A stretch of DNA of 64,000 nt from Xanthobacteraceae bacterium (GTDB lineage: Bacteria > Pseudomonadota > Alphaproteobacteria > Rhizobiales > Xanthobacteraceae). Location of the stretch: the NCBI GenBank assembly GCA_031291475.1, contig JARLIY010000132.1, forward strand, positions 310,001 through 374,000, given 5' to 3'. Below, in pieces: positions 3,087 through 18,751 of the stretch (the stretch's first letter is position 1; every line of letters starts with the position of its first letter). The notes below the pieces were generated by a model. That model was not told the origin of the DNA. It did not search any database and saw nothing but the letters and a program-made list of their open reading frames with translations. A program made the translations under genes and the position numbers.

Positions 3087-4474
3087 GGCCGATGTCGGCC
3101 GGTGCTCGAGCGTTGCTTGTGTTCGCCGCGCTCGCCGGCCTTGCAGTCGCCGCCGCGGCGACCGCGAAAGCCGCCGAGCCGGAACCGATCGTATTTCCCG
3201 ATACCCAGTATGAGCCGGTCGACTGGGCCGATCTCGACGGCTGGGCGAACGACGATCACGCCACGGCGTTCGCCGCCTTTCTCGAAAGCTGCCGGGCATT
3301 GAACGCAAGCCGCCAGCCCGCCTCGACCGCACAGACGGCGACGATCGCGGACGCGCTTAAGGCGGTCTGCGCGCGTGGTTTCGCTGCTGTCCCGCTCGAG
3401 GAGGACGGCGCGCGCAAGTTCTTCGAGGATAATTTCCGGCCGCTGCACATCAGCAAGCTCGGCGATACTGACGGCTTTCTCACCGGATATTACGAACCGA
3501 TCATCGAGGGCTCGCGCGTGCCGACCGGCGAGTTCACGGCGCCGCTCTATCGCCGGCCGCCGAACCTCGTCGTTTCCGGCAAGCGTAAACTCGGCGTTGC
3601 GTTTCCCTCAAAGGGCGTCAAAGTCGGCCGCCGCGTCGGCCGCCGCAAGATCGTGCCGTATTACGATCGCGGCGAGATCGAGGACGGCGCGCTCGACGGC
3701 TGGCATCTGGAAATCTGCTGGCTGCGCAGCCAGCTCGACGTACTGTTCGCGCAGATCCAGGGCTCGGCGCGTATCAGGCTGGAAGACGGCGCCGTCCTGC
3801 GTGTCAATTACGACGCGCATAACGGCTGGCCCTACACGCCCGTCGGCCGCGTGCTTGCCGAACGCAAGGTCATGCCCAAGGACGAAGTGACGATGCAGCG
3901 CATCCGCGACTGGATGGAAACCAATCCGGACACGGCCAAGGATGTGCGGCGGCAAAACAGATCCTACGTCTTCTTCCACATCACCGACCTGGCGAACCAG
4001 GATGAGGCGGTCGGCGGCGAAGGCGTGCCGCTGGTGCCCGGCCGCTCGATCGCGGTGGACCGTTCGCTGCATGCTTACGGCACGCCGTTCTTCATCGCCG
4101 CCGATCTGCCGATTGCCAACGACAAGGCGGGCACGAAATTCCGCCGGCTGGTTTTTGCCCAGGATACCGGCTCGGCCATCGTCGGACCGGCGCGCGCCGA
4201 TATCTATTTCGGCGCCGGCGCCGAAGCGGCGCGGATCGCCGGCCGCATCCGCAATCCGGGTCAATTCGTGATGCTGCTGCCGCGCGAACTCGATCCGGTG
4301 GAGGCGGGGCGCAACACACCGCTGCCGCCGGAGCGTCCGGGCTTTTTTGCGCAATTCACCGCCGGCAGCATGATCGATCCGACCGCGGAGGATGTGCCGC
4401 TGCCGGAGGCAAGGCCTGCCGCCGAGCCGGAGGCGGCGCCGGCGCCAAAGCCGAAATCGCGGCGAGCACCATGA
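3083..4474 (+). CDS. mltA: Membrane-bound lytic murein transglycosylase A
   Basis: FLTGYYEPIIEGS and QDTGSAIVGPARADIYFGAG 3D-domain motifs. Confidence 0.93.
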   Translation: MRPMSAGARALLVFAALAGLAVAAAATAKAAEPEPIVFPDTQYEPVDWADLDGWANDDHATAFAAFLESCRALNASRQPASTAQTATIADALKAVCARGFAAVPLEEDGARKFFEDNFRPLHISKLGDTDGFLTGYYEPIIEGSRVPTGEFTAPLYRRPPNLVVSGKRKLGVAFPSKGVKVGRRVGRRKIVPYYDRGEIEDGALDGWHLEICWLRSQLDVLFAQIQGSARIRLEDGAVLRVNYDAHNGWPYTPVGRVLAERKVMPKDEVTMQRIRDWMETNPDTAKDVRRQNRSYVFFHITDLANQDEAVGGEGVPLVPGRSIAVDRSLHAYGTPFFIAADLPIANDKAGTKFRRLVFAQDTGSAIVGPARADIYFGAGAEAARIAGRIRNPGQFVMLLPRELDPVEAGRNTPLPPERPGFFAQFTAGSMIDPTAEDVPLPEARPAAEPEAAPAPKPKSRRAP

Positions 4475-5028
4475 GCCGGCGGCGTTCTTTGACGGAGGAA
4501 GAGCGCACGCTGTGGCGCGGGGTGGCGCATTCGATCACGCCGTTGCAGCCTTCGCGGCGATCCGCCGCGCCGCCGGCCGGCGAGGATGCCGGCAATCCCG
4601 CCGACGAGGCGCCTCCGCCCGCGCCGCGCTTGCCGGTGCGTCATGAGGTCGCGCCGGCGAACAAAGCCCCGCCGCTCGCAGCGCTCGGGCGGCGGTTCAA
4701 GGGCCGCGTCGCTCGCGGCCGCGAACCGATCGACAGCCGCCTCGACCTGCACGGTTTCACCCAGGGGCAAGCGCATGCGGCATTGCTGCGCTTTCTGCGC
4801 GGCGCGCAAACGGACGGCGCCAAAATCGTGCTGGTCGTCACCGGCAAGGGAAGCACACGCGCGCAACGCGACGCCACGGCCGAGCCCGGCGTGCTCAAGC
4901 GCATGGTGCCGATCTGGCTGGCGCTGCCGGAATTCCGCCCCTTTGTCGTCGGCTTCGAGGACGCGCATCCCGGACATGGCGGGCAGGGCGCCCTTTACGT
5001 CCGCCTGCGCCGCGTGCGCTCGCGTTAA
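4471..5028 (+). CDS. Smr domain protein
   Basis: IDSRLDLHGFTQGQAHAALLRFL and VVTGKGS...PGVLKRMVPIWL Smr motifs; ATGA overlap with mltA. Confidence 0.9.
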   Translation: MSRRRSLTEEERTLWRGVAHSITPLQPSRRSAAPPAGEDAGNPADEAPPPAPRLPVRHEVAPANKAPPLAALGRRFKGRVARGREPIDSRLDLHGFTQGQAHAALLRFLRGAQTDGAKIVLVVTGKGSTRAQRDATAEPGVLKRMVPIWLALPEFRPFVVGFEDAHPGHGGQGALYVRLRRVRSR

Positions 5029-5115
5029 CCAAACTTACTGGAATTCCACGCTCCGGGCACGACACCGTCAAATTCCTCTGCGAAAACGGCGTCCCCGATT
5101 GGAGCGTTGCGAACC

Positions 5116-5262
5116 ATGTCCGAAACCGCCGCCGCCCAGCAGAAATCCGCCACGCGAAACGAAAGCTCGGATCAGCGCATCCTTGCCCAGGTCGATAAGT
5201 GGCTGGCAGTGATCCGCGAAATCAGCGGTGAGCGGGGCACGCAGAGCAATTATCCGCGCTGA
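5116..5262 (+). CDS. Possible 48-aa small protein
   Basis: ATG...TGA ORF MSETAAAQQKSATRNESSDQRILAQVDKWLAVIREISGERGTQSNYPR; below the ORF-track cut-off. Confidence 0.3.
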   Translation: MSETAAAQQKSATRNESSDQRILAQVDKWLAVIREISGERGTQSNYPR

Positions 5263-5267
5263 GAGCC

Positions 5268-5322
5268 GTATCGTCATTGCGAGGAGCCCCAACGGGGCGG
5301 CGAAGCAATCCAATCCGCTCCA
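5268..5322. repeat. Dispersed intergenic palindromic repeat (CGTCATTGCGAGGAGC...GGCGAAGCAATCC)
   Basis: Matches a recognisable intergenic repeat style of alphaproteobacteria; follows a small ORF and precedes the hslU stop. Confidence 0.55.
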
Positions 5323-5326
5323 GTCG

Positions 5327-6631
5327 CTACAGAATAAACCGGCTGAGATCGGCGTTTTTGGCGAGATCGCCGACGTGCTTTTCCACGTAATCGGCGTCGA
5401 TCTTGACCGTTTCGCCCGGCCGGTCGGGCGCGGCGAAGGAGACTTCGTCGAGCACGCGCTCCATCACCGTTTGCAGCCGCCGCGCGCCGATATTTTCCAC
5501 GCTCGAATTGACCGCGACCGCCATGTCGGCAACGGCGTCGATGGCATCCTCGGAGAATTCCAGCGTCACGCCTTCGGTGCGCAGCAGCGCGATATATTGC
5601 TTGATCAGCGAAGCTTCGGGCTCGGTCAGGATGCGCCGCATGTCGTCGCGCGTCAGCGGTTTCAGCTCGACGCGGATCGGCAGCCGGCCTTGCAGCTCCG
5701 GCAACAGATCGGAGGGCTTGGAGATGTGGAAGGCGCCCGAGGCGATGAACAGGATGTGATCGGTCTTCACCGGGCCGTGCTTGGTCGCCACTGTCGTGCC
5801 CTCGATCAGCGGCAACAGATCGCGCTGCACGCCCTCGCGCGACACGTCGGCGCCGATACGGCCGTCGCGCGCGCAGATCTTGTCGATCTCGTCGAGAAAG
5901 ACGATGCCGTTATTCTCCACCGCCTTGATGGCTTCCTGCGTCAGTTGTTCGGTATCGAGCAGCTTGTCGGATTCCTCGTTGATCAGGATGCCGTAGGAAT
6001 CGTGCACGCTGACGCGCCGCGTCTTGGTGCGGCCGCCGCCGAGCTTGCCGAAGATGTCGCCGATGGAGATGGCGCCCATTTGCGCGCCGGGCATGCCGGG
6101 AATTTCAAACAGCGGCATGCCGCCCGACGATTGCACCTCGATTTCGATTTCCTTGTCGTTGAGCTCGCCGGCGCGGAGCTTGCGGCGGAACGCCTCTTTG
6201 GTGGACGGGCTGGCGGCTGGTCCGACGAGGGCATCGATGACCCGATTTTCGGCCGCTTGCTGGGCGCGTGCCTCGACGTCCTTGCGCTTTCGCTCGCGGG
6301 TCTGGGCGATGGCGATCTCGACGAGGTCGCGCACGATCTGCTCGACGTCGCGGCCGACATAGCCGACTTCGGTGAATTTCGTCGCTTCCACTTTAAGGAA
6401 CGGCGCGCCGGCAAGTCTGGCGAGACGGCGCGAGATTTCGGTCTTGCCGACGCCGGTCGGGCCGATCATCAGAATGTTCTTCGGCAGGACTTCCTCGCGC
6501 AGCTTTTCGTCGAGCTGGAGCCGGCGCCAGCGGTTGCGCAACGCGATGGCGACCGCGCGCTTGGCATCCGCCTGTCCGACGATGAAGCGGTCGAGCTCGG
6601 AAACGATTTCGCGCGGGGAAAAATCACTCAT
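5327..6631 (-). CDS. hslU: ATP-dependent protease ATPase subunit HslU
   Basis: [33 protein letters not shown]...[15 protein letters not shown]. Confidence 0.97.
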
Positions 6632-12673: not shown

Positions 12674-14269
12674 TTACGCCGCCGCGGCATGCCAACGCTC
12701 GATCTCGGCAAGTTCGGCGTCCAGCCGTTCGGCAACGATACTGCCCCGGCCGAGATAGATCGCGCCTGCTTCGCCGTCGATCGAGAGCCAATCGCCTTCT
12801 TTGATGGCAATCCCCGCGAGTTGCGCGCAACGGCGGGCGACATCGATCGACAAGGTCGTGCAGCCGACGATGCACGGTTTCCCGAGCTGTCGCGCCACCA
12901 ACGCGGCATGGGCGGTGCGGCCGCCGATCGCGGTGACGATTCCCGCGGCGACGGCGAAGCCGCCGACGTCGGCGGTGGTGGTCGCCGGACGCACAAGAAT
13001 GACCGGATCGCCGCTTGCCGCCAGGCGGGCCACGCTTTCCGGATCGAAAGCGGCGCGGCCCACCGCGACGCCGGCCGATGCGCAAATCCCGTGCGCGACC
13101 GGGGCGTCCACCATTATCAGCCGGTTGCTGACGAGTTTGCGTAAATCCACGCCGTCGAGGCGACGCAAGGCTTCCGCCGGCGCGACCCGTCCCTCGTTGA
13201 CGAAGTCGATCGCCAACCGCAGTGCCGCCTGCGGCGTCCGCTTCGCCGCGCGCGTCTGTAGAATCCACAATTTGCCGTTCTCGATCGTGAATTCGACGTC
13301 CTGGATGTCGGCGAAATCCTGTTCGAGCCGCCGCAGCGCTTCGCGCAATTGCCGTCCGATTTCGGGCAGCGAACGGATGATGGCTTCTTCGGTCTCGGGA
13401 TTATGTCCTCCCGACACCACGTCTTCGCCCTGGGATTCGAACAGTACGTCGATAACGGGTCGGGCGGCGCCGGTTGAGGGATCGCGTGAAAACGCCACTC
13501 CGGCTCCCGACGATGCGCCGGCATTGCCGAAGACCATCGCCTGCACCGTGACGGCGGTGCCCTGCAAATCCTCAAGATGTTCGAGCCTGCGATAAGTGCA
13601 GGCGCGATCGCTCATCCATGAGCGAAACACCGCCTGCGCCGCCGACTTCAATTGGTCCATCGGGTCTTCACTCAGCACATGCTCTTCTTCCTCGATGACT
13701 TGCTCGTAGGCGGTTGCGAGGCGTTCGAGGGCTTCGCCATCGAGCGCGCGTTCGCTGCTCGCGTCTTCGGCGGCGACGATTTCGTCGCGCTTGCCGATAA
13801 AGGCGGCAGGATCGATGCCCAGCACTACGGCGCCGTAGCTTTCGAGAAAGCGGCGCCGGCAGTCGCTGGCAAGGTGCGGGTTGCCAGTCATGCGCACCAG
13901 GCCGCGAACGGCCGAAGGCGTGCAGCCGACATTGAGCACGGTATCCAACATTCCCGGCATCGATCGCGCCGCGCCCGAACGCACCGATACCAAAAGCGGC
14001 CGCCACCGGTCGCCGAACCGCCGGCCGGTCGTATTCTCGAGAAACTCGATACCCTCGGTCAGGCCGTCGGCCAGATTGCGGATGGCCGATGCGTCGCCCT
14101 TCACCGTCGCCGCGCAAAGGCTGATCGGCAGCACGAAGGCCGGCGGCACGGGAAGTCCGAGCGCGGCCACGCGCGCCAGGTTGGCCGCCTTTCCGCCTAC
14201 CATGTCCACCGAATATTGTTCGGCCGATCCGTCACCGATGCGCGCGATCTCCATGGTGGCTGCCCTCAA
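12674..14269 (-). CDS. PPDK-like protein with nucleotide-binding and swivelling phosphohistidine domains, lacking the PEP/pyruvate TIM-barrel
   Basis: VGGKAANLARV; VSVRSGAARSMPGMLDTVLNVG; GEDVVSGGHNP; DVEFTIENGKLWILQTRAAKRT; swivel motif GGRTAHAALVARQLGKPCIVG; ends after the swivel domain. Start may be the internal ATG at 14254. Confidence 0.85.
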   Translation of the reverse strand: MRAATMEIARIGDGSAEQYSVDMVGGKAANLARVAALGLPVPPAFVLPISLCAATVKGDASAIRNLADGLTEGIEFLENTTGRRFGDRWRPLLVSVRSGAARSMPGMLDTVLNVGCTPSAVRGLVRMTGNPHLASDCRRRFLESYGAVVLGIDPAAFIGKRDEIVAAEDASSERALDGEALERLATAYEQVIEEEEHVLSEDPMDQLKSAAQAVFRSWMSDRACTYRRLEHLEDLQGTAVTVQAMVFGNAGASSGAGVAFSRDPSTGAARPVIDVLFESQGEDVVSGGHNPETEEAIIRSLPEIGRQLREALRRLEQDFADIQDVEFTIENGKLWILQTRAAKRTPQAALRLAIDFVNEGRVAPAEALRRLDGVDLRKLVSNRLIMVDAPVAHGICASAGVAVGRAAFDPESVARLAASGDPVILVRPATTTADVGGFAVAAGIVTAIGGRTAHAALVARQLGKPCIVGCTTLSIDVARRCAQLAGIAIKEGDWLSIDGEAGAIYLGRGSIVAERLDAELAEIERWHAAAA

Positions 14270-16197
14270 GTCGAAAGGTCCGTGAGCACATGATCGCGCA
14301 GGAGGTGCCCGAAGGCCGCCAGCCGGTCGGTCGAGCGCTCAAGAGCACGCGCGAGTTCGAGAACGGACAATGCCGTTTTGAGATTGAAGTCGCCGCTTAG
14401 GATGATCGCCGTCACCGCGCGTTCCGCCGCGTCGGCCCGGTGTTCGACATCGATCAATCGGCCGACCGCGGCGAGCGCGTCCTCGGTGTCGATGCGATGC
14501 CCCTCGGGAACCTCGGCCGCGGCGGCAACCCCGGTCGCGGCTGCTTCCGTGCCCGCTACTGTCACGGCGCAAAGCTCGGCGAGCGGCTCCAGCAACTCGG
14601 ATGCAACCTCGGCCGGGACCAACGAAGCCACGAAGGCCGCCTGTTCGAGCTCGTCGATTGCGTCCTCCATCTCATTGACCAGATGTTCGATGCCGCGGCC
14701 GGCGCCGAAGCGGGCGATCTCGTTGCGCGCATCCATGACAATTTGGTCGGCTTTCTCCTCGATGCGGCGCGCCCGCTTTGCCAAGGCGGCACTGTCGAAT
14801 GGGCGCTTCGCCGTTCGTTCGCTGACGAAACCGGCGATGCCGGCCGCAATCTCACGCGCCAGACCGACCTGGCGGATCATGACAGCGAGCAGCGTTCGAT
14901 CAACGCGCTGCAGATGCGCAATGAGAGCCGCCTCAATACGGTCCCGCGCCAGCCGGACCGAACTTCCCTGCAGCAACGCTTCGGCGGAGACACGCAGCAC
15001 GGTCTTGAGAAAATCGACGGCGGCTTCGCGCCCCAGCGCGTGATCGAGGCTTTCGCCGAATCCGATACGGGTCGGTGCTGCGTGATGGACCGCCGCCGCC
15101 ACGAGTTCTCCGCCGCCAAGTTCGAGGAAGCCTCTGTGGCCGATGCGATGCTGCGCCGCCCAGGCGAGCACTCGGATCGCATCGGATTTTGATACCCATT
15201 CTCTGAGGACTTTGCGCGCTTTGTTCCAGTCGATCAGAAAGACGAGCGAGGCTCCCACGTTTTCGAGAAAAGCATCGCGGCGGGCGCCGCTGTCGAACGG
15301 CAAGCGCCCGGTGACAAGATAGAAGCCGCCGTCGTCGCCGAGCCCGGTCGAGTTTTTCCGTTCAAGCCCGCTCCACTGAACGGGGAAATTACGAAACAAT
15401 CCGATGAAGAACTTTGCCCGCACCGCGTGCACGTCGGTATAGGTGACGGTCACGGCGTCGGCCTCGACGGCGATCACCACCACATGCGCGTCCGTCTCGC
15501 CGATGTCGTTCTGGATGGTGAGCCGCCCGCCCGACCGCGTCGCGGTCGTCGCCAGCCCGGGATGGCCGAATCTGAGCTTCTCGGTCGCCTCGACCCCGCG
15601 CATGAACGCTTCGACCGCCGGCCGATCCTGCGGCAACAACGCGTAGACGTGCGCGCCAGCGAGCACTTCCTCCGCATGATCGGCGGCAAGCCGGTTGAGC
15701 GCCTTGTGCAGATCCATAATCAGGCGATGCAGGCTGTCGCCGCCGCCATCGCCGTCCGAAATGCTGGTTAGTCTGCCGATTTCCGCGAGCGCGACGTCGT
15801 CGGAAGATTCTAAGGGCCCCGCCTGGATCGCCGCGAGGCGCGCGACCGCCCGGTCCGCCTCCGCTGCGTCGCCGGCTTTGACGGCGCGGATCATGATCGC
15901 CACGTCATCCAGAATCGCGGCGCGGAGGTTGCCGAGCCCGGGCGCCGAAATCCGTTCGCCGGCCGAAAGCGTGGCGCGGTTAACCAGCGTTTCCAACGCC
16001 ACATGATCGATGCCGGCGTCGCGGCATTCGCCGATCAGATCGAAGCGGGCACTCGCCGGGTCGCGCGCATGATTTGCGGCCGCCTGCAAAACGCTCAGCC
16101 GGACCTTCACCCGATCGTTCGCGGCCAAGCCCTCGGCGAGAAGCGATGGCAGCAGCAAATCGGCCTGTCCGAGCTGCTCGATGATTTCGGATTTCAT
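14266..16197 (-). CDS. Large uncharacterised protein with a DUF47/PhoU-like helical C-terminus
   Basis: LAKRARRIEEKADQIVMDARNEIARFGAGRGIEHLVNEMEDAIDELEQAAF resembles DUF47; about 400-aa N-terminal region not recognised; 4-bp overlap with the downstream PPDK-like gene. Confidence 0.65.
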   Translation of the reverse strand: MKSEIIEQLGQADLLLPSLLAEGLAANDRVKVRLSVLQAAANHARDPASARFDLIGECRDAGIDHVALETLVNRATLSAGERISAPGLGNLRAAILDDVAIMIRAVKAGDAAEADRAVARLAAIQAGPLESSDDVALAEIGRLTSISDGDGGGDSLHRLIMDLHKALNRLAADHAEEVLAGAHVYALLPQDRPAVEAFMRGVEATEKLRFGHPGLATTATRSGGRLTIQNDIGETDAHVVVIAVEADAVTVTYTDVHAVRAKFFIGLFRNFPVQWSGLERKNSTGLGDDGGFYLVTGRLPFDSGARRDAFLENVGASLVFLIDWNKARKVLREWVSKSDAIRVLAWAAQHRIGHRGFLELGGGELVAAAVHHAAPTRIGFGESLDHALGREAAVDFLKTVLRVSAEALLQGSSVRLARDRIEAALIAHLQRVDRTLLAVMIRQVGLAREIAAGIAGFVSERTAKRPFDSAALAKRARRIEEKADQIVMDARNEIARFGAGRGIEHLVNEMEDAIDELEQAAFVASLVPAEVASELLEPLAELCAVTVAGTEAAATGVAAAAEVPEGHRIDTEDALAAVGRLIDVEHRADAAERAVTAIILSGDFNLKTALSVLELARALERSTDRLAAFGHLLRDHVLTDLST

Positions 16198-16279
16198 GGC
16201 GCCGCACTCTGCTCAGCAGTCAGCAGAGCAGGTTCAGATGACGCTGTTATTGAGCCAGATCATTCACGCAAATGTCACA

Positions 16280-16327: not shown

Positions 16328-18538
16328 TTATGCCGCGAGCGCGGCGTCCGCCGCCGACGCCAGCGCCGCGGCGAGGCGTTCGCGGTCGAACGGCTTGACC
16401 AGGAAGCCGTCCATGCCGGCGGCGAGGCAGGCCTCGCGGTCTTCGGCGGAGGCGTTTGCGGTCAGCGCCAGGATCGGCGTTCGCGCCGCGCCGCCGTCCG
16501 CTTCGAGGGCGCGGATGCGGCGGGTTGCTTCTAGCCCATCCATGCCCGGCATATGCAAATCCATGAGCACGCGGTCGAAGGGCGTGCCGGCGGCGCGTGC
16601 GGCAAGCCAGGATTCGACGACCGCGGCGCCGGAGGCGGCCAAGGTCGGATGATGGCCGAGCCGGACCAGCAGCGCGCGCGCCAAGAGTGCATTGATCTCG
16701 TTGTCCTCGGCGACGAGAATCGAAAGCCCGCCGCCCGGCCGCGCCGCGCTCGGCGCTTCCGCGGTCTCCATCGCCGCGCCGTGGTCGAAGGCGTCGTCCT
16801 GCGAAAAGCGCGCGGCAAGGGAAGCCGCGCGCACCGGCTTGATCAGATAGCCGGTAAAGCCGGCTTCCTTGAGGGCTGCGAGCTCGTTGCGCATCGCCGG
16901 CGTGACCAGCACGATCCGCCGCTGCACGCTCGACGCGGCGCGCGCCAGGCGCTCGCAGGCTTGCGTGCCGAGCGCGTGATCGACCAGCACGGCGCTCCAC
17001 ATTTGCTCGGGAAGCAGCGCCGCCGCCACGTTGTCGTCGGGAACGATTTTTGTCCGTGCGCCCCAGCGTTGCAGGCGGCGCGCGAGCAAAGACGCTTCCA
17101 TGGCGGCCGGCGCGACGATCAGGATATCGTCGCCGGCAAGATCGGGCACTTTGAGCTCCGGTTCGCCGGCATCGCCGGCGCGCGCCAGCGGAACGGTGAC
17201 GCGGAAGGTGGAACCTTCATCGGGAGCGCTCTCGACCGCGATCGAGCCGCCCATGCTCTCGACGATCCGGTTGGAAATGGTGAGACCGAGGCCGGTGCCG
17301 CCGAATTTTCGCGTCGAGCCGCCGTCGGCCTGCTCGAATTCGAGGAAGATGCGCGCCTGGTCTTCCGAGGAAATGCCGATGCCGGTGTCCTGCACCGTTA
17401 TCGCGATCGCGTCCGCTTCTTCGCCCGGCTCGAGGATGATCGAAACGCCGCCGCGTTCGGTGAATTTGATGGCGTTGCCGGCAAGGTTGAACAGAACCTG
17501 GCGCAACCGCGCGGCGTCGCCGACGACCTGCGCGGGCAGGCGCTCATCGACATAGGCGCCGATTTCCAGCCGCTTGGCCTGGGCGCGCGGACCCAGAAGC
17601 TCGACGGCCTCCTCGACGAAGGCCGCAAGCGGAAACGGCCGCGCCGCCAGATCGAGCCGGCCGGCCTCGATCTTGGAGAAATCGAGCACTTCCTCGATCA
17701 GCGACAAGAGCGTCTCGCCGGAAGTCTTCACCGCGTTGAGATAGGTCGCCTGCTCGGGCGTGAGCGGGGTGTCGCCGAGAAGATCGGCCATGCCGAGGAT
17801 GCCGTTCAGCGGCGTGCGGATTTCGTGCGACACCATGGTGAGGAAACGCGACTTGGCGCGATTGGCCGCTTCGGCTTGGTCACGCGCCTCGGCCAACGCC
17901 CGCTCGGCAAGCACGCGGTCGGTGACGTCGCGGCCGACGCTCTGCATCTCGCTGTCGCCATCGGCGCGGACATTGACCTCGCGCCAGGCGATCCAGCGTG
18001 CACCGGAGGCCGAGGCGATCTTCTGGTCGTAAGCGCGCGCGCCGTCGGCCAGCAGGCTGGTCTCGCCTTGCTCCACCACCGGCAGCGCGAAGGCGGTGCC
18101 GAGCAGCGCTTCGCGGGGCCGTCCGGCGAGCGCGCAGAAAGCGTCGTTGGCGTAAGTGATGGCGCCCGAGCCGTCGCGGCGCACGATCACGTCGTCCTGC
18201 GCCTCGAAGAAGCTCGTGGTGCGCTCTTGCGCTTCGCGGATTTCCCAGTTGCGGTCCGCCGCTTCATCGAGACGCGTCTCGAAGTCGCGCAGCTCGCGCT
18301 TCATGCGGCGGATGCGGGACATGAGGATGCCCATGGCGCCGCACGACGCGCCGAACAGCGAGGCGACGCCGATCGCGAACATGTAGGGGTCGTAGTGGGC
18401 TACCGGCGAGGTCGCTCCGGCGAGGAAGCCGAAAGCCACCGCAAACGACATCGAGATGATGATGGCCGACCGGACCAGAAGCGAGAAGATCCGGCGACCG
18501 ATGATGGAGGGCTTTCCGAGGGCGGCTCGAGGGCGCAT
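16328..18538 (-). CDS. Hybrid sensor histidine kinase (2 TM, PAS, HisKA, HATPase_c, pseudo-REC, REC)
   Basis: FLTMVSHEIRTPLNGILGMADLL H-box; GTGLGLTISNRIVESMGG G-box; C-terminal ILVAEDNEINALLA...VLMDLHMPGMDG receiver. Start placed at the internal ATG. Confidence 0.9.
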   Translation of the reverse strand: MRPRAALGKPSIIGRRIFSLLVRSAIIISMSFAVAFGFLAGATSPVAHYDPYMFAIGVASLFGASCGAMGILMSRIRRMKRELRDFETRLDEAADRNWEIREAQERTTSFFEAQDDVIVRRDGSGAITYANDAFCALAGRPREALLGTAFALPVVEQGETSLLADGARAYDQKIASASGARWIAWREVNVRADGDSEMQSVGRDVTDRVLAERALAEARDQAEAANRAKSRFLTMVSHEIRTPLNGILGMADLLGDTPLTPEQATYLNAVKTSGETLLSLIEEVLDFSKIEAGRLDLAARPFPLAAFVEEAVELLGPRAQAKRLEIGAYVDERLPAQVVGDAARLRQVLFNLAGNAIKFTERGGVSIILEPGEEADAIAITVQDTGIGISSEDQARIFLEFEQADGGSTRKFGGTGLGLTISNRIVESMGGSIAVESAPDEGSTFRVTVPLARAGDAGEPELKVPDLAGDDILIVAPAAMEASLLARRLQRWGARTKIVPDDNVAAALLPEQMWSAVLVDHALGTQACERLARAASSVQRRIVLVTPAMRNELAALKEAGFTGYLIKPVRAASLAARFSQDDAFDHGAAMETAEAPSAARPGGGLSILVAEDNEINALLARALLVRLGHHPTLAASGAAVVESWLAARAAGTPFDRVLMDLHMPGMDGLEATRRIRALEADGGAARTPILALTANASAEDREACLAAGMDGFLVKPFDRERLAAALASAADAALAA

Positions 18539-18751
18539 GGTCCTTTTCCAGCTTGGCACGCCCCCGCGGCCGGCGATCGGAAGCCGCGTCGAGTGCCCGC
18601 TGTTGTCAATGCAGTGACGCCGATTTTGGCCTATGAACTCTTGCGCATCCCTTGCATCTCGCAAGAACGATTGGAGCGAGGGTTGATGCTTTGTTAACAT
18701 TGCCCGGGCCCATGGGCGGCTCGATATCTAAGGCGCGACCGGAGAACGCGG

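Follow-up and report, generated by a model that had tools for sequence, protein, structure and literature searches.

The window analysed here, a 64,000-nucleotide stretch of a Xanthobacteraceae bacterium genome (GenBank assembly GCA_031291475.1, contig JARLIY010000132.1, positions 310,001 to 374,000; positions below are those of the window), carries on its minus strand a gene for a 643-residue partner protein (16197-14266) and, directly downstream on the same strand, a gene for a kinase derived from PPDK (12674..14254; 526 residues from ATG 14254, or 531 residues from TTG 14269), both lying where a first-pass annotation of this DNA had placed them. These two genes form an obligate pair, with the kinase behind the partner in every locus that leaves room for it. 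In our estimate the chance falls a little short of even that the pair acts as an ATP-driven phosphohistidine switch, the partner being the receiver or the gate of the phosphoryl group.

The gene-neighbourhood survey of truncated PPDK beside DUF47 proteins that the first-pass annotation had suggested revealed full co-conservation, whose absence that annotation had named as fatal to its proposal. A scan of a species-level genome collection yielded 80 partner loci, and each of the 78 loci of sufficient extent has the short PPDK behind the partner, the other two ending inside the partner gene; the pair is likewise adjacent in 23 of 23 further genomes holding the partner, and one plasmid each from Methylocella tundrae and Aquabacterium olei carries it as well. 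Among 61 related genomes, ten contain the partner, and the same ten alone hold the short-PPDK subfamily (59-69% identity, 540-595 residues), whatever the length of the match; all other PPDK-type matches reach about 44% identity at most, if very short fragments from unrelated swivel-domain genes are set aside. Other alphaproteobacterial families and one betaproteobacterial order hold distant pairs, at roughly 33-43% partner identity and adjacent in 10 of 10 cases, and the pair spans two proteobacterial classes. Outside Bradyrhizobium its neighbours vary freely between loci, and a neighbourhood comparison of the pair loci found no conserved operon context there; since these remaining neighbours differ among loci, the pair itself is the unit. 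Our literature search found nothing on a DUF47-PPDK pair, and the idea of a defence system was rejected because defence-system annotation gave no PADLOC match.

One 3.5-kb contig of the source genome bin bears another short PPDK, where the preceding 12 codons encode SLRDYALSDLST-stop; as this matches the partner tail, it may represent a second pair, or else a contaminant (bin contamination, 5%).

The kinase, PPDK and VadK

The kinase consists of an ATP-grasp (nucleotide-binding) region at 13250..14224 (-), recognised by Pfam PPDK_N (E 1.6e-40) and by alignment to PPDK structures and containing the motifs VGGKAAN, SVRSGAARSMPGMLDT, DVEFTIE and LQTR, followed by a phosphohistidine swivel domain at 12764..13009 (-), recognised by Pfam PEP-utilizers (E 2.7e-21) and by motif comparison, in which the catalytic His lies in GGRTAHAA (codon 12910-12908; His449 in the 526-residue form, His454 in the numbering of the first-pass annotation). 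It aligns with solved PPDKs across about their first 525 residues (E about 1e-109) and shares with PPDK (TIGR01828) domains 1 and 2, all ATP and His motifs and about 40% identity; however, it lacks domain 3, the phosphoenolpyruvate (PEP)/pyruvate barrel, for which the Pfam scan gave no PEP-utilizers_C match, and its TIGR01828 score of 513 bits lies below the family cut-off of 843. In PPDK, phosphate passes from the His to pyruvate through the C-terminal domain. The first-pass annotation had described a protein that keeps the PPDK ATP-site and swivel His motifs and stops before the barrel, and Pfam, structure alignment and motif comparison all agree with that description. Since motif alignment found the ATP-site and catalytic-His motifs intact, we infer that the kinase would autophosphorylate on its swivel His by the PPDK half-reaction, experiment having been done in its homologue VadK.

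Could this be a PPDK in disguise, with the barrel supplied in trans, or a decaying PPDK duplicate? The whole kinase is indeed homologous to PPDK by sequence, but we regard this explanation as highly improbable. The source genome, a 172-contig assembly from which a missing piece is not fully excludable, contains no orphan PEP/pyruvate barrel protein over the cut-off: its three PEP-utilizers_C matches are a PPDK of 937 residues, a PEP synthase of 816 residues and a PtsI/PtsP-sized protein of 847 residues. A split PPDK completed by a separate barrel protein, which the first-pass annotation had named as fatal to its own proposal, was rejected for want of such an orphan. Moreover, full-length PPDK-type genes (roughly 860-1000 residues) are also present in most relatives, and open frames and catalytic motifs are retained at 34-75% partner identity; therefore, the kinase is not decaying.

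Two observations on other PPDK-type proteins may be added. In the full-length PPDK of the source genome, the usual LQTR reads LPTG, possibly through an assembly error. The short PPDKs of Azospirillum ramasamyi and Skermanella rosea (568-571 residues), which the tree places near full-length PPDKs, have a pyruvate kinase gene as an immediate or close neighbour, and the barrel of that enzyme might in principle make up for the PPDK domain that they lack.

That a truncated PPDK can be a His kinase is already published biology. VadK, the truncated PPDK Rv1127c of Mycobacterium tuberculosis renamed in 2026, autophosphorylates on its swivel His, interacts with the methylcitrate-cycle enzymes encoded nearby, is more soluble if co-expressed with its operon partner Rv1126c, and was put forward as an invention found in pathogenic mycobacteria and allied genera only (EMBO Rep 2026; PMC13400623). 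Judged by its sequence, the window kinase is likewise a truncated PPDK with an intact ATP-binding Arg and catalytic His, and the two systems have in common the ATP-grasp region, the His swivel, the absence of a PEP/pyruvate barrel and a two-gene arrangement. In contrast, the VadK partner is a MarR-annotated protein of about 200 residues, whereas the partner here is an unrelated 643-residue PhoU fusion; the partner gene lies upstream of the kinase in our pair but downstream in the case of the VadK homologue on an M. avium plasmid; and the pair has a Pho/FixK-like promoter and, in the window, no adjacent methylcitrate-cycle genes. Comparison of the partner with Rv1126c-like proteins gave no homology (hhalign probability 0.5%), and the notion of a distant Rv1126c was rejected on this basis, a likeness seen in a seven-sequence alignment having been forced by that alignment.

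The tree separates the kinases in the same manner. Here the VadK side was represented by the M. avium plasmid homologue (40% identity to the window kinase), Rv1127c itself being absent. The pair kinases are monophyletic, 12 of 12 with support 100/99, and the homologue falls outside their clade, where it joins the short PPDKs of Rhodococcus at 97/90 and a protein from Methylibium at 97/97. Around the catalytic His, all 12 sampled clade members read GxRT[A/S]HAA, with an Arg that none of the other 14 sequences has. On these sequence comparisons, the pair is a system separate from VadK, and its partner, its clade and its predicted regulation are new. With this pair, moreover, the origin or divergence of PPDK-derived kinases extends to more than one lineage, and every such lineage has a dedicated partner of its own; soil and root-nodule bacteria amenable to genetics thereby become available for studying the principle.

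On the VadK side itself, the VadK-like kinase and the Rv1126c-like protein of M. branderi, Diaphorobacter, Rhodococcus and M. avium plasmids adjoin a 'PEP-utilizing enzyme', in which, for M. avium, a swivel is the one domain that Pfam recognises; this enzyme might act there as a second phosphohistidine acceptor. A plasmid of Methylibium petroleiphilum encodes (3902-6436) an 844-residue PPDK-like protein with ATP-grasp and swivel and no recognised barrel, beside bacterial microcompartment genes.

The partner protein

The last 230 or so residues of the partner (residues 414-643; 14269..14958, minus strand) are, on fold and profile comparisons, a PhoU/DUF47 domain, a helical region with the acidic motifs E480xxxD484, D515xxE518, E585xxxD589 and E620xxxD624. 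The window protein itself gives a Pfam PhoU_div match of 1.1e-4 (22.0 bits) that stays under the cut-off of 24.4, and 18 of 38 partner homologues match this family, the best at 1.7e-7; the partner profile also finds the PhoU-like structure 3l39 (E 4.2e-6). An AlphaFold2 model (mean predicted local distance difference test score, pLDDT, 87.9) resembles PhoU-like structures, with a Foldseek E value of 1.7e-4 for 3l39 and target-normalised template modelling (TM) scores of about 0.7-0.8, up to 0.80 for 2iiu. The domain accordingly appears to share the fold and the conserved E/DxxxD-type acidic motifs of DUF47/PhoU_div phosphate-transport regulators (PF01865; 3l39, 2iiu). However, the ordinary stand-alone DUF47-like genes of about 210-330 residues, which the partner profile catches over its C-terminal half only, differ from the partner, which carries about 410 unclassified residues ahead of the domain and comes with a kinase.

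This N-terminal region (residues 1-412; 14962..16197, minus strand) is unclassified: profile searches with the first 410 or so residues found no Pfam family and no PDB sequence, and for its model (pLDDT 88.6) Foldseek returned no PDB fold at E<0.001, the top matches being noise (TM 0.12). A DUF47-like C-terminus joined to a large unrecognised N-terminus, as the first-pass annotation had put it, is thus what all these searches support. Used as sole query against 289 genomes, the N-terminal half retrieved full-length proteins only and no free-standing counterpart. Two winged helices could be read into its first 190 or so residues from the succession of helices and strands, but we make no claim for them. 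Conservation is strongest in residues 189-373 (15633-15079, minus strand), with the stretches QNDIGxTDAHV, TYTDVH and LIDWNKARK: among 12 sequences with identities as low as 34%, invariant columns make up 27% there vs 7% in the PhoU part. Histidines 157, 164, 212, 238, 257 and 354, six in all, never vary, and further invariant residues in the 189-373 stretch are N230, D231, D255, D323, N325, R328 and K329. A domain so strongly conserved, and unclassified, deserves a structure in its own right.

Such a pattern bears on the possibility of a two-component small-molecule dikinase, in which the partner's N-terminal domain would bind a metabolite and the kinase phosphohistidine would phosphorylate it, with a domain boundary other than that of HpeHI, CreHI and phenylphosphate synthase. 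Delivery of phosphate from a His to a small molecule by a two-component dikinase is established for HpeHI, CreHI and PpsAB (PMC12167813), where ATP-grasp and phosphohistidine chemistry is split over two proteins, as in our pair, and the acceptor is not pyruvate; and residues 189-373, always accompanied by the kinase, resemble an active site in their invariant H212, N230, D231, H238, D255, H257, D323, N325, R328 and K329. Nevertheless, HpeHI-type enzymes carry the swivel on the subunit that binds the substrate, whereas here it belongs to the ATP-grasp chain; the N-terminal model shows no fold similarity to dikinase substrate domains or to any other PDB entry (Foldseek); and the loci lack a consistent catabolic neighbourhood, bar xfp-ackA in Bradyrhizobium. 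Taking both sides together, we hold a small-molecule dikinase to be unlikely.

Promoter motifs and proposed mechanism

Upstream of the partner we found two promoter motifs that go beyond the first-pass annotation. The first is a FixK/FNR-like box, ATGATCTGGCTCAA, at 16250..16263 (-), 66 bp upstream of the partner ATG, which is the only site scoring >=16 in the window by a matrix made from the 17 FixK2 boxes listed in PMC9104804 with the phosphoketolase box left out. Such a box occurs in most of the alphaproteobacteria, and of 74 loci examined 60 have one scoring >=12 ahead of the partner gene, usually at about -70, vs 4.9% of random 300-bp windows. It is a variant, ATGATCTnGC(G/T)CAA as against TTGA/C-N6-T/GCAA, and one listed FixK2 box, ATGATCTGGGTCAA, has the same first-base change (PMC9104804). 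The second motif is a Pho-box-like direct repeat with an 11-bp period, CATTCAC-GCAA-ATGTCAC, at 16261..16278 (+), reversed relative to the gene and overlapping the FixK-like box; PHO boxes consist of two CTGTCAT-like 7-mers with 4 nt between them (PMC3131613). It is one of four sites in the window scoring >=9.5, a threshold picked after looking, at which the repeat occurs with the exact 11-bp period in 10 of 13 divergent loci (other periods, 0-3; random 200-bp windows, 1.6%) and in 26 of 53 non-redundant core loci (most other periods, 0-4, with 11/53 at 15 bp). By our reading, some divergent loci approach a textbook Pho promoter, L165 being an example (CTGCCAT-GAAG-TTGCCAC-N10-TAGCAT). These motifs are strong evidence of their kind, not proof, for control by PhoB and FixK, and the pair is probably transcribed under phosphate status, through the Pho box, and under oxygen status, through the FixK/FNR box, in Hyphomicrobiales and some other alphaproteobacteria. 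The phosphate link that the first-pass annotation had guessed at gains independent support from the Pho-box-like repeats and the PhoU fold, its "phosphate or metabolite sensing" staying inferred.

Phosphoketolase and acetate kinase (xfp-ackA) immediately precede the pair, reading the same way, in at least 22 Bradyrhizobium loci, and in a few further loci the pair comes just behind phosphoketolase alone. Behind xfp-ackA it retains its own FixK-like box, and most of these loci have a box TTGACCTCACGCAA ahead of phosphoketolase. The same sequence is listed for bll2518-bll2517 of B. diazoefficiens, a species in which phosphoketolase and acetate kinase are FixK2 targets; expression of bll2518-bll2517 falls about 10-fold in a fixK2 deletion (PMC9104804), and the literature search found no mention by name of bll2514-bll2516 of that species. 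This neighbourhood lends itself to a second explanation, a VadK-like regulator, in which the kinase, once phosphorylated, would attach to metabolic enzymes and tune them; the partner would then be no more than a subunit for co-folding or regulation, a role that Rv1126c may have for VadK. The published behaviour of VadK, which autophosphorylates, binds methylcitrate-cycle enzymes and gains solubility with Rv1126c (PMC13400623), and the adjacency to xfp-ackA speak for it. Against it, the partner is unrelated to Rv1126c-like proteins and most conserved outside its PhoU region, beyond a simple chaperone's needs, and most loci have no conserved metabolic neighbour; we consider this explanation fairly improbable.

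For the phosphohistidine switch, the two genes would make up a self-contained module. The kinase would bind ATP and phosphorylate its own swivel His; for lack of a PEP/pyruvate barrel, the phosphohistidine would swivel instead towards the always-adjacent partner, whose conserved N-terminal domain may take the phosphoryl group or gate its use while the PhoU-like domain senses or docks. The output would likely fall on carbon and energy metabolism, to judge from the neighbourhood and from analogy with VadK, and could be a tuning under phosphate or oxygen limitation of, e.g., the phosphoketolase-acetate kinase route in Bradyrhizobium. Several points weigh against this scheme: phosphotransfer to the partner and a kinase-partner complex are putative steps; the N-terminal domain as acceptor is a guess from its conservation; betaproteobacterial pair loci lack the FixK-like box; the Pho-like repeat, imperfect and in most core loci reversed with respect to the gene, overlaps the FixK-like box in the core loci and is of uncertain meaning there; and, the core loci being related, their promoter counts are not independent. 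The wider proposal of a phosphate- and oxygen-regulated His phosphorelay, unlike two-component systems or the phosphotransferase system (PTS) and leading from a PPDK-derived kinase to a new-fold domain joined to a PhoU-like sensor, seems to us rather doubtful. If true, ATP and phosphate status would be coupled to carbon flux through His-phosphate, by a path outside both two-component systems and the PTS.

Gene junction and upstream neighbour

The junction of the two genes reads ...ACTTGAGGGCAGCCACCATG, that is, the partner stop, a Shine-Dalgarno-like GAGGG (14263..14267, minus strand) that overlaps this stop, and the kinase ATG 14254, which lies 8 nt beyond the GAGGG and 11 bp after the stop. 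The first-pass annotation had the kinase overlap the partner by 4 bp, which holds only if TTG 14269 is the start. When the first in-frame ATG or GTG was taken as the kinase start at 76 homologous junctions, it lay 0-25 bp past the partner stop in 68 and overlapped the partner in 4; the claimed overlap is therefore probably a start-codon artefact. Given ATG 14254 with its ribosome site and this junction survey, the kinase most likely has 526 residues, and translational coupling is plausible, in which case it would work through the shared stop and Shine-Dalgarno sequence.

Immediately ahead of the pair, and likewise on the minus strand, the window encodes a hybrid PAS histidine kinase with receiver domains (16328-18700, minus strand). 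It is not conserved beside other copies of the pair, except for a distant match on the other strand at one Caulobacteraceae locus (L108).

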